From Micromonospora vinacea (GTDB lineage: Bacteria > Actinomycetota > Actinomycetes > Mycobacteriales > Micromonosporaceae): DNA of 64,000 nucleotides. The number at the start of each line of letters is the position of its first letter. Position 1 is the stretch's first letter. Below the pieces are notes generated by a model, which searched no databases, was not told where the DNA came from, and worked only from the letters and a program-made list of their open reading frames with translations. Positions 2,442 to 43,540 of the stretch are shown here, piece by piece. Location: the NCBI RefSeq assembly GCF_015751785.1, contig NZ_JADOTY010000001.1:5456001-5520000 (forward strand), in the 5' to 3' direction. Both the position numbers and the translations under genes were made by a program.

Positions 2442-2906
2442 TTGACGAGTAAGCCTGTCCGTATTGTCGTTGGTCTGGTCGCGACCGTGGGTCTCGTTGT
2501 GGGCTGCCAGCCTGCCGATAAGGAGAGCGCGGGGAGCGCCGCGCCGACGCCGACCGTGGCGCCCAGCCCGACCGTCGACGTGGCGGCGAACAGCAAGCAG
2601 GTCTGCGACGCCAGTCTCGATTTTGTCAAGAAGCACTACGTGGCGATGGCCGACGATGCGATCGCCGCCATCGACAAGCCGGTCAGCGCCAAGGAGGCGG
2701 GCGCGAAGGTCCGTGGCCACTACACGGCGCTGTTGCAGGACCTGCGGACGGCGGCGCCGACCGCTGCCGATCCGCAGGTTCGCACCGCGTTGGAGACCTT
2801 GGCCGCAGGGGTCGAGAAGCACCTGGCCAGCCCGAAGGCCACCGAGGTCGAGGCGCCGGATCTCGACCCGCCGCTGAAGGCGTTGGACACCGTCTGCGGT
2901 CGCTGA
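2442..2906 (+). CDS. Putative lipoprotein
   Basis: A 154-aa protein starting at TTG 2442, preceded by a GGGGGA ribosome site. The N-terminus has basic residues, a hydrophobic stretch and a lipobox LVVGC with the lipidated Cys at about residue 22. A Ser/Pro/Thr-rich linker follows, then a helical domain of about 105 residues holding two further Cys (near the domain start and in TVCGR at the end) that could form a disulfide. It is predicted to be anchored to the outer face of the cytoplasmic membrane. No enzymatic motif is seen. It is convergent with the GH20 gene and shares the hairpin at 2914-2944. Confidence 0.8.
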   Translation: MTSKPVRIVVGLVATVGLVVGCQPADKESAGSAAPTPTVAPSPTVDVAANSKQVCDASLDFVKKHYVAMADDAIAAIDKPVSAKEAGAKVRGHYTALLQDLRTAAPTAADPQVRTALETLAAGVEKHLASPKATEVEAPDLDPPLKALDTVCGR

Positions 2907-2913
2907 TCGTCGT

Positions 2914-2944
2914 GTGGGCACCGGCCGCGCCGGCCGGTGCCCAC
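2914..2944. terminator. Bidirectional hairpin terminator
   Basis: A perfect 14-bp inverted repeat (2914-2927 and 2931-2944) with a 3-nt loop lies between the convergent stops at 2906 and 2961. It can act on both transcripts. Confidence 0.75.
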
Positions 2945-2960
2945 TGTCAACGGGTGCGGC

Positions 2961-4559
2961 TCAGATCCAGGGCACCTGCGGGGACGGGTAGAAGTCGACC
3001 TGTTGCAGTCGCCAGCGGGGTGCCTGCTCCCCCAGTCGGGTCCGGAACGATTCCCAGTCGTGGCTGGCGGTGGTGGACCAGCCGAGTTCGGCGATCGCGG
3101 GTAGGCGGGGGAAGGCCATGTATTCGATGTCGTCCAGGGTGCGGAGCGTCTCGGACCACAGCGGGGCCTCGACGCCGAGGATGGCGTTCTCGCCGACGCC
3201 GGTGACCCGGGTGGCGGGGTCCCAGCCGTACGCGTCGGACACCTCGATCAGGCCGGCCCAGCGCAGGCCGAGGCGGGTGTTGGCGTCGTACTTCATGTCC
3301 AGGTAGGTCTTGTTCGCCGGCGACATGATTACCTTGTTGCCGCGGGCGGCGGCCGCGGCGAGGCTGGCGTTGGTGGTGCCGGTGCCCCAGAACTGGGCGA
3401 CGACGTCGGTGGACGGGTCGGCCTGGGTGATCTCGTTCCATCCGGAGGCGCGCTTGCCGTACTTGGCGACCAGGGGCAGGACCCGGTTCATGAAGGTGCG
3501 GTAGTCCTCGTCGGTGGTGGCGTGGGCTTCGTCGCCGCCGATGTGCAGGAATGGTCCGGGAGTGATGGCGGCGAGTTCGCGGATGACGTCCTCGACGAAG
3601 CGGTAGGTGAGTTCGTCGTTGATGCAGAGGGAGCTGTAGCCGACCGCGATGTCGGTGCGCGGGGGCGGTGCGACGCCGTCGCAGTTGAGTTCGGGGTATG
3701 TCGACTGGGCGGCGTTGGTGTGCCCGGGCATGTCGATCTCGGGGATGATCGTGATGTGTCGTGCGGCGGCGTACGCGACGACGGCCTGGTAGTCGGCTTT
3801 GGTGAGGTATCCGGGGCCGACGCCGTCGACTCCGGTGCCGGGTCCGCCGCCGACGGTGGTGAGGCGGGGCCAGGAGTCGATCTGGATGCGCCAGCCCTGG
3901 TCGTCGGTGAGGTGCAGGTGCAGGTAGTTGATTTTGTACTGGCTGAGCAGGTCCACGTAGGCGGTGATGTCGTCGACGGTGTGGAAGTGCCGGGCGAGGT
4001 CGAGCATCGCGCCGCGGTAGGCGAAGCGTGGGTAGTCGATGATTCGTCCGCCGGGGACCGTCCAGGTGATCCGCTGCCGGTCGGGTGCCTCGATGTCGGC
4101 GGGGAGCAGTTGGCGCAGGGTCTGGGTGCCGGCGAAGAGTCCGGCGGGGGTGTTGGCGCGGATCGTCACGCCGCGGCGGGTGACGTCGAGTTGGTAGCCC
4201 TGCTGGCCGATGCGGGTGTCGGCGTCTCCGATGAGCAGGGCGATCTCGGGTAGCGGGGTGGAGCGGACGGGCAGGACGGGCAGGGGGTGGCCGGTGGCGG
4301 GGCGCAGTGTGGTGGCGAGTTGGTGGCCGATGCGCCGGGCGGCGGCTGAGCCGGGGGTGGTGCGGATGACGGTCAGGGGGCTGATCCGGAACGCGTTGTG
4401 CGCGTCGGGGCGGGTTTCGACAGGTGCGGGGATGACGTCGCTGAGGTGTCGGGCTGGTGTGGGGGCCGCCGCGGCGGGCGCGGGGGTGGCGGGCAGGGTG
4501 AGTGGTAGCGCGAGTGCGGCTATGGCCAGCAGCCGTGTGGTGGTGTGTCGGCGACGCAC
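2961..4559 (-). CDS. Exported beta-N-acetylhexosaminidase, GH20 family
   Basis: A 532-aa glycoside hydrolase family 20 enzyme that removes terminal GlcNAc or GalNAc from chito-oligosaccharides or glycans. I chose GTG 4559 because GGAGG lies 5 bases upstream; an ATG at 4589 lacks a good site. A signal peptide with an Ala/Leu core and an Ala/Pro-rich end is followed by a GH20 N-terminal domain and the TIM barrel. The catalytic Asp-Glu pair is visible in HIGGDEAH at about residues 338-345, and the barrel ends with WSTTASHDWESF. Outside the cell it would feed amino sugars to the organism. An inverted TAA/TTA element lies upstream at 4639. Confidence 0.95.
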   Translation of the reverse strand: MRRRHTTTRLLAIAALALPLTLPATPAPAAAAPTPARHLSDVIPAPVETRPDAHNAFRISPLTVIRTTPGSAAARRIGHQLATTLRPATGHPLPVLPVRSTPLPEIALLIGDADTRIGQQGYQLDVTRRGVTIRANTPAGLFAGTQTLRQLLPADIEAPDRQRITWTVPGGRIIDYPRFAYRGAMLDLARHFHTVDDITAYVDLLSQYKINYLHLHLTDDQGWRIQIDSWPRLTTVGGGPGTGVDGVGPGYLTKADYQAVVAYAAARHITIIPEIDMPGHTNAAQSTYPELNCDGVAPPPRTDIAVGYSSLCINDELTYRFVEDVIRELAAITPGPFLHIGGDEAHATTDEDYRTFMNRVLPLVAKYGKRASGWNEITQADPSTDVVAQFWGTGTTNASLAAAAARGNKVIMSPANKTYLDMKYDANTRLGLRWAGLIEVSDAYGWDPATRVTGVGENAILGVEAPLWSETLRTLDDIEYMAFPRLPAIAELGWSTTASHDWESFRTRLGEQAPRWRLQQVDFYPSPQVPWI

Positions 4560-13081: not shown

Positions 13082-13162
13082 CGGCACACCGTAGCGGGAC
13101 GGCCTCCCGGCGACCGCCGATTTTTTTGCGGCCAGTATCCCGCCGTCCCCCACCTCCCCCCA

Positions 13163-13246
13163 CCCGGTCGATCATGGAGTTGTGGTGGGCGCCAAAGCAC
13201 GTCTCACCGAGCCAAACCCGGCACCACAACTGCATGATCGACCGGG
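13163..13246. repeat. Long imperfect inverted repeat, 24-base arms
   Basis: Arms at 13163-13186 and 13223-13246 match in 23 of 24 positions around a 36-base centre. The arm core reads GATCATGGAGTTGTGGT. The element lies in the 278-base gap between the Eis-like gene and the arginase-family gene and shares its style with the adjacent element at 13255. It may be a short palindromic mobile or REP-like repeat. Confidence 0.7.
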
Positions 13247-13254
13247 AAGGGCCG

Positions 13255-13323
13255 CGATCTTGCAGTTGCTGCACCGACGTAGGGGGCATTCCGCGCATCC
13301 CGGCAACCGGAACTGCAAGATCG
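13255..13323. repeat. Second inverted repeat, 13-base arms
   Basis: CGATCTTGCAGTT at 13255-13267 is repeated inverted (AACTGCAAGATCG) at 13311-13323. It starts 8 bases after the preceding inverted repeat. Both share a GATC-TTGCAGTT-like core. Confidence 0.65.
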
Positions 13324-34458: not shown

Positions 34459-34513
34459 TGCCGGTAACCCCCTGCCAGCACCCCGTGCCGGCTGCGGCCC
34501 TCGAAAGCGGTGT

Positions 34514-34575
34514 CGCCGAAGATCTTGGAAGGAGATTGCCCCTTCGGGGGGCCAAATCTTCCAAGATCTTCGGCG
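34514..34575. repeat. Long hairpin with TTCG tetraloop
   Basis: The outer 17 bases of each arm (CGCCGAAGATCTTGGAA at 34514-34530 and its complement at 34559-34575) pair perfectly; the inner part pairs imperfectly, and CCCC-TTCG-GGGG closes the loop at 34539-34550. A UUCG loop closed by C-G is exceptionally stable in RNA. Confidence 0.7.
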
Positions 34576-34592
34576 AGAGGTCGGCCCGATGG

Positions 34593-43371: not shown

Positions 43372-43468
43372 GGAATCCGCTCTCCTGAAGCCACCGCATG
43401 ACCGCGATCATGTTGCCCCTGAGAACCAGCATGCCGACGCACCATCCGGACCAGCCGCCTCTGCACGC

Positions 43469-43517
43469 AAATCTTGGACAGTTTCCGTTAGAACGTAACG
43501 GAAACTGTCCAAGATTT
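43469..43517. repeat. Perfect 22-bp inverted repeat
   Basis: The arms 43469-43490 and 43496-43517 are perfectly complementary (core ATCTTGGACAGTTTCCGTTA) around a 5-base loop. It lies 24 bases after the DinB stop on the minus strand and may terminate that transcript, but its length and AT-rich arms suit a repeated palindromic element. Confidence 0.8.
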
Positions 43518-43540
43518 GGTGGTGCCGCTGCCCGGCGGCC

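Follow-up and report, generated by a model that had tools for sequence, protein, structure and literature searches.

A perfect hairpin lies in an intergenic spacer of the 64-kb stretch of Micromonospora vinacea DNA analyzed here (the window), and it raises the question of whether such a structure is a solitary terminator-like element or a member of a repeat family with a genetic partner of its own.

43468..43518, no strand assigned: lone clade-1-type palindrome, 23-bp arms, loop GAACG

The two arms (43468-43490 and 43496-43518) are 23 nt long each and 100% complementary around the 5-nt loop. An earlier note on this DNA described a perfect 22-bp hairpin at 43469-43517 around GAACG; the perfect pairing and the loop are retained here, and the extent is corrected to 23 bp at 43468-43518. 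Its description of the hairpin as strong and AT-rich is borne out by a palindrome scan, in which the hairpin is the top palindrome of the window with a score of 23, against 15 for the runner-up and a maximum of 10-13 per sequence in ten first-order simulated 64-kb sequences. The minus strand as folded RNA reaches -42.4 kcal/mol (z = -10.8, equaled by 0 of 200 shuffles). The GC content is 0.41, compared with 0.68-0.87 for the other eight palindromes listed. The flanking genes, both on the minus strand, are a mycothiol-S-transferase/DinB-type gene and a peptidase S51 gene, and no U run follows the hairpin on either strand. An Rfam identity was considered and rejected: there were only sub-threshold matches, nearly all to microRNA models fitting the hairpin shape, and the best (E 0.003) is below the gathering scores and is attributed to chance. 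The arm sequence occurs once in the window and is repeated elsewhere in the genome. Taken alone, the hairpin is an orphan copy without special rank.

Distribution and anatomy of the repeat

Copies were counted with R1, a covariance model built from 73 copies, which matches both strands, so that the number of copies is half the number of matches. R1 finds about nine copies of the clade-1 palindrome in the genome of the window and matches in 47 of 61 genus genomes, the remaining 14 having none. The genome-wide search that the earlier note proposed thus shows the arm recurring, and the outcome that it had named as fatal, a single site without conservation, did not hold, as the palindrome is repeated in both genome and genus. 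In a mixed set of 61 genomes, a 63-base query gives matches in 23, namely 23 of the 37 Micromonospora (the genome of the window included) and 0 of the 24 others. When a degenerate pattern was searched in one genome per species (84,980 species), at least 120 stretches matched; among the matches listed, 116 belong to Micromonospora, three to 'Micromonosporaceae bacterium KJ-029', and one to Verrucosispora.

The anatomy of the repeat is tightly defined. The spacing from GTY to RAC is exactly 7 nt in 174 of 185 distinct copies, and conservation ends sharply outside AGATC/GATCT in 170 well-matched copies. Pairing holds in 91.8% of cells across the 73 copies, and changes on both sides are seen in 88 cells compared with 53.1 +/- 5.4 in shuffles, none of 500 being as high. 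Since the arms covary, the dyad itself is kept, beyond the sequence alone. Copies of one species resemble each other more than they resemble those of other species, a result matched by 1 of 1000 label shuffles. Among the 170 copies there is no excess of flanking repeats of 4-mers or longer that would indicate target duplication; 3-mer flanking repeats are in excess at one of three offsets (13 vs 4.8 expected, the largest of 300 shuffles also giving 13).

The copies are intergenic, with 2 of 160 within a predicted gene and 19 of 160 unclassifiable at locus edges. When spacers are classified with a home-made gene finder and compared with a baseline of 477 spacers of the same loci that includes the hairpin-bearing ones, copies are over-represented between convergent genes (61 of 139 classified copies vs 116 of 477 spacers) and under-represented between divergent genes (15 of 139 vs 104 of 477). 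In the draft genomes G005, G030, and G034, numerous copies are located no more than a few hundred bases from a contig end (e.g., loci L445, L451, L472, L496, and L502). The hairpins seem to break draft assemblies, and copy numbers in drafts may be undercounts.

The gene between paired palindromes

Several palindromes occur in pairs at a distance of 1.04-1.25 kb. Six pairs were examined, and each encloses one protein gene of ~320-340 aa, frameshifted in L099. A complete unit consists of a palindrome, ~36 bp, a gene of ~320 codons, and a palindrome over the stop codon, ~1.1 kb in total. The clade-1 gene (~72% identity or more to the query) is present in 27 of the 61 genus genomes, frameshifted in G009, and is absent from the genome of the window. 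A palindrome is found on at least one side of the gene in 27 of 27 cases and on both sides in 21 of 27 as scored by script; low scores at L185 upstream and L178 downstream may be spurious matches or decayed copies. The upstream palindrome ends a median of 36 bp before the start codon, and the downstream palindrome overlaps the stop codon (median -4). Two decaying clade-1 genes were seen, one at L147 3644-4116 with an internal deletion (residues 1-57, then 221-324) and one at L105 223-1160 with a frameshift.

The N-terminal part of the protein matches AbiEi models in 19 of 19 proteins and Pfam AbiEi_4 in 8 of 19; in 13 of 19, it also matches a methyl-directed restriction enzyme model of a defence library. 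The C-terminal part matches Pfam DUF559 in 19 of 19 proteins at E <= 0.1, which is weak. A PDB profile search returned the endonuclease-like protein 3hrl (2.9e-6), PvuRts1I (0.004), and the mobile intron protein 3r3p (E 0.041), presumably a member of the EDxHD family. Residues E212, D244, E255, D257, and H261, which we take to be catalytic from related folds, are conserved in 53-54 of 54 proteins, including those of clades with other palindromes. The AlphaFold model of the protein, made with seven close sequences as input, has a pLDDT of 38.6 and was set aside. No relative of the protein was found in viral contigs.

Copy number and the matching gene

The 27 genomes with the clade-1 gene carry a median of 11.5 R1 copies (range 4.5-38.5), and the 34 genomes without it carry a median of one, with no copies in 14 of 34 and at least four in 9 of 34. 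The genome of the window lacks the clade-1 gene and still has its nine or so copies, which indicates that copies can outlive the gene.

A paralogous clade (clade 3, ~50% identity) has another palindrome at its flanks, GATCTTGGAAGGAAA-GGCCC, and serves as a comparison. Clade-3 genes were taken as matches at 47-54% identity over at least 250 residues, and their palindromes were counted in the same 61 genus genomes with R2, a model of 13 sequences, whose counts for G003 and G084 are possibly lower bounds (at least 100 matches). With kinship ignored, the matching pairs are strongly associated over the 61 genomes (R1 vs clade-1 genes, p = 1.9e-8; R2 vs clade-3 genes, p = 2.9e-9), and the crossed pairs are not (R1 vs clade-3 genes, p = 0.75; R2 vs clade-1 genes, p = 0.64). 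Genomes with clade 1 only (18) have medians of 11.8 for R1 and 1.0 for R2, and those with clade 3 only (12) have medians of 0.2 and 30.0, respectively. Judged from genome sequences and with kinship ignored, palindrome number follows the matching gene independently of the sister gene, which constitutes a double dissociation.

A tree of locus B (described below) gives four sister pairs in which one member has the clade-1 gene and the other lacks it, and three of them fit. The copy numbers of the fitting pairs are as follows:

G004, 14 copies vs G071, 2 copies
G002, 23 copies vs G000, 9 copies
G078, 30 copies vs G064, 2 copies

The fourth pair, G035 (5 copies) vs G070 (10 copies), goes in the wrong direction. 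G063, which unlike its relatives has the gene and many copies, was considered as a natural experiment and set aside because the flank of its locus B conflicts with its other loci; this flank looks recombined.

Units and lone copies across loci

By their outer flanks, the 27 clade-1 units fall into locus A (7), locus B (11), locus C (3), locus D (2), and single sites (4). Of 30 genomes compared at locus B, nine have the whole unit, 14 have a lone palindrome, which in some is decayed, and seven have neither. In a tree of the DNA beside locus B, the unit and lone states interleave with at least four changes, and the empty state forms one clade. Locus A, for which 18 of 30 loci were examined and a few GC-rich low-scoring matches were discounted, has seven units, four lone palindromes, and seven cases without either. 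The lone palindromes at A are those of G004, G024, G063, and G078, in which the clade-1 gene is elsewhere or absent. All seven genomes with a unit at A carry a lone palindrome at B, decayed in G030. In the gene tree, the A genes are nested in a group that has a B gene as its closest relative outside it, and the C genes are mixed with those of D; for a possible swap between loci C and D there is a single weak case (L488, 181 nt at 75%), which is given no weight here. Compared across species, gene and palindromes occur together at differing loci, and lone palindromes sit where relatives carry the whole unit. Gene and palindromes appear to change place together.

At the window's own site, the palindrome is present in four of six genomes with the same neighbors and absent in G024 and G030. 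No exact empty site was found, the spacers at this site being too diverged among the six genomes to give exact edges. Seven of 20 lone sites of G002 were recovered in G030, based on partial G030 sequence and a biased sample. Many lone sites are common to related species, which suggests that movement is not frantic.

Sister palindromes and distant relatives

The earlier note had also seen a kinship in style between the hairpin and repeats at 13.3 and 34.5 kb of the window, and this kinship is upheld, since both match palindromes of sister genes, the latter by R2 and the former by eye.

34513..34576, no strand assigned: clade-3-type palindrome GATCTTGGAAG...CTTCCAAGATC, perfect in the outer 19-bp arms and imperfect inside them
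13158..13251, no strand assigned: long palindrome GATCATGGAGTTGTGGTG...CACCACAACTGCATGATC, like those that bracket the AbiEi-DUF559 paralogue of L259 (by eye, no model)
13255..13323, no strand assigned: long palindrome CGATCTTGCAGTT...AACTGCAAGATCG, like the palindromes beside the paralogues of L250, L251, and L257 (by eye, no model)

The R2 match lies at 34521-34568 and scores 54.9 bits, the 34.5-kb repeat itself being one of the 13 model sequences. The genome of the window also has a truncated clade-3 gene with clade-3-type palindromes on both sides (L253).

Relatives of the protein are present in 142 of 150 Micromonosporaceae genomes and in 152 of 197 genomes of the class. Their loci were scanned for palindromes with longer apical parts allowed and loci truncated by a contig end omitted, so that 36 of 40 Micromonospora paralogues, 58 of 60 from mostly other genera of the family, and 22 of 27 from outside the family were used; L337 was omitted beforehand as belonging to the same genus. 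A palindrome lies near at least one gene end in 20 of 36, 39 of 58, and 10 of 22 genes, respectively, and no palindrome is found at the scan cut-offs in 16 of 36, 19 of 58, and 12 of 22. Palindromes per kb near gene ends are 1.23, 1.32, and 0.95 in the three sets vs 0.046, 0.011, and 0.021 further off. For genes with palindromes at both ends, the left-right similarity is 20-42 (n = 12), 27-54 (n = 14), and 15 and 44 (n = 2), and palindromes of different genes are mostly dissimilar, with a median similarity of 7-8 in the three sets. Going by these scans, each gene clade tested has its own palindrome, and the pairing of gene and palindrome appears general. Distant paralogues with long palindromes on both sides are also found at L252 in the genome of the window (C1:4205728-4208480, AAGATCCGCGCAAGTTCGGGG-type) and at L260 in G065 (GTGCAGTTTCGGGGAAGATG-type).

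Interpretation and alternative explanations

The hairpin is probably a lone copy of a palindromic repeat partnered by an AbiEi-DUF559 protein, in a partnership that resembles REP/RAYT and is built on an unrelated nuclease. The palindromes and the nuclease-like gene together look like a mobile or self-propagating repeat of an undescribed kind. Autoregulation through inverted repeats bound in the promoter is reported for AbiEi proteins (PMC7319586), and for this reason the AbiEi-like N-terminal domain is proposed to recognize the inverted repeat. The Vsr/DUF559-like C-terminal domain would then cut DNA at or beside the palindrome, and repair of the cut would move or copy the palindrome, or the gene bracketed by two palindromes, to other sites. 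Recombination between the two bracketing palindromes would remove the gene and leave a lone palindrome. As the genome of the window is without the clade-1 gene, its copies are orphans. The partnership is favored because all 27 genes are flanked, copy number is tied to the gene and doubly dissociated from the sister gene, left and right palindromes of one gene are alike, units differ in locus, lone palindromes stand at A and B where relatives have units, the protein matches nucleases of the PDB and, in 19 of 19 cases, AbiEi models, and nuclease residues are conserved. Counted against it are correlations blind to kinship, the pair G035/G070, the 9 of 34 gene-less genomes with at least four copies, the shared lone sites, the lack of target duplication and of an exact empty site, and the fact that about half of the paralogues and distant relatives have no palindrome. 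The wider proposal that actinomycetes hold a large undescribed class of palindromes, with every AbiEi-DUF559 paralogue recognizing one palindrome of its own and propagating it, and with the gene jumping from palindrome to palindrome in the chromosome, is held with evenly divided confidence.

The same palindromes could be operators, in which case the AbiEi-like protein would repress its own gene by binding at the upstream copy and the lone copies would form a regulon. The position of the upstream copy, a median of 36 bp ahead of the start codon, and the promoter repeats of AbiEi-type antitoxins (PMC7319586) agree with such a role. However, another copy runs over the stop codon, divergent spacers, the site of promoters, are poor in lone copies (15/139 vs 104/477), conserved nuclease-type residues would be superfluous, and about nine copies survive in a genome that has lost the gene, so that regulation by operators is unlikely. 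The earlier note proposed testing the hairpin as a terminator or RNA-stabilizing element. Repeated terminators or stabilizers of mRNA 3' ends lying beside the gene by chance would explain the great stability of the hairpin and its over-representation between convergent genes, but there is no U run, and 14 of 61 genus genomes have no palindrome under R1. Moreover, gene-specific palindromes lie on both sides of the gene, upstream as well as downstream, and copy numbers are gene-specific in a manner unlike terminators. This function is given little credence; a side role at 3' ends may exist, in view of the excess of copies between convergent genes.

A role in defence or self-marking, in which foreign DNA is the target of the nuclease and the chromosome is marked or protected by palindromes that spread alongside the nuclease rather than by its action, draws on the N-terminal matches to AbiEi models and on the match of 13 of 19 proteins to the methyl-directed restriction enzyme model. 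It is very unlikely given that palindromes persist without the gene. Size, palindromic form, and intergenic placing are like those of an ordinary REP moved by a RAYT (Y1 transposase) or of ordinary insertion-sequence ends (MITE). This origin is highly improbable: PF01797 occurs in no more than 17 of the 61 genus genomes, 8 of them among the 27 that have the clade-1 gene, and the genome of the window has none; the six pairs examined enclose the AbiEi-DUF559 gene only; the sole DDE element seen, which is IS481-like, sits inside a hairpin loop; and there is no target duplication.

Comparison with known systems

RAYTs: The RAYTs are the enzyme family described as the partner of short bacterial palindromes. 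A RAYT gene is flanked by two repeats with which it coevolves, and the number of repeats is tied to the matching gene (PMC2817692). The system described here shares with REP/RAYT (REPtrons, REPINs) the two flanking palindromes, coevolution, gene-tied copy number, and lone copies that are mostly intergenic (PMC2817692, PMC3733652). In contrast, the enzyme is an AbiEi-DUF559 protein instead of an HUH tyrosine transposase, PF01797 is absent from the genome of the window and from 44 of 61 genus genomes, and copies number tens, not hundreds. The conserved end is A(G/A)ATC, whereas REPs have the tetranucleotide GTAG at one repeat end (PMC3733652). Because the RAYT enzyme is absent from the genome of the window, the AbiEi-DUF559 system is placed outside the RAYT family; by analogy, it would work like a RAYT if the proposed mechanism holds.

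AbiEi antitoxins and nucleases: AbiEi antitoxins of type IV toxin-antitoxin systems share the N-terminal AbiEi match (19 of 19) and bind inverted repeats (PMC7319586), but here the C-terminal part is nuclease-like and repeat copies lie far from the gene. The conserved acidic and His residues of nuclease type are shared with DUF559/Vsr-like nucleases, and cleavage is putative. The EDxHD/Vsr-like homing endonucleases are related through the profile matches to 3r3p (E 0.041) and PvuRts1I (0.004); in contrast to them, the unit lies outside introns and inteins in the loci seen and has complete palindromes on both sides instead of one split target site.

Insertion sequences and terminators: Insertion sequences with solo ends (solo-LTR-like remnants, MITEs) likewise occur as a whole unit or a single end at one locus in different genomes. 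Unlike them, the unit has no known transposase, its ends are complete palindromes, and target duplication is missing. An intrinsic terminator has a stable hairpin in common with the repeat and differs in its U run, which is missing here on both strands.

Novelty: In the open-licence literature, no description of the pairing of AbiEi-DUF559 with palindromes was found, and no paper joining AbiEi and DUF559; as far as these searches show, the palindrome family with its AbiEi-DUF559 gene is undescribed there. A 2013 survey leaves the CGTC-type repeat class without a dedicated mover (PMC3733652). If the wider proposal is true, the REP/RAYT principle would have been invented a second time, independently and with a PD-(D/E)XK/Vsr-type nuclease, and a widespread domain of unknown function, multi-copy in actinomycetes, would gain a function. 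A nuclease family with matching palindromes would be a testable second kind of palindrome partner and would supply many natural protein-palindrome pairs for the study of how a nuclease reads inverted repeats.

An insertion within a palindrome copy

Another copy of the palindrome in the genome of the window contains an IS481-like element in its loop (L013 ~2490-3880; C1:6187190-6188580). The element encodes a 411-aa rve protein that scores 204 bits, below the NCBIfam cut-off of 224. A reading as an insertion sequence with the palindrome for its ends was considered and dropped, since the element interrupts a single hairpin at its loop, where ~12 nt are duplicated (gttacggcctaac / gttacgcctaac). 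At locus B, the genome of the window has a lone palindrome (L274, near C1:3724865) with extra apical bases, CTATTCAG..., which start like the IS481-like element of L013 and are perhaps a scar.
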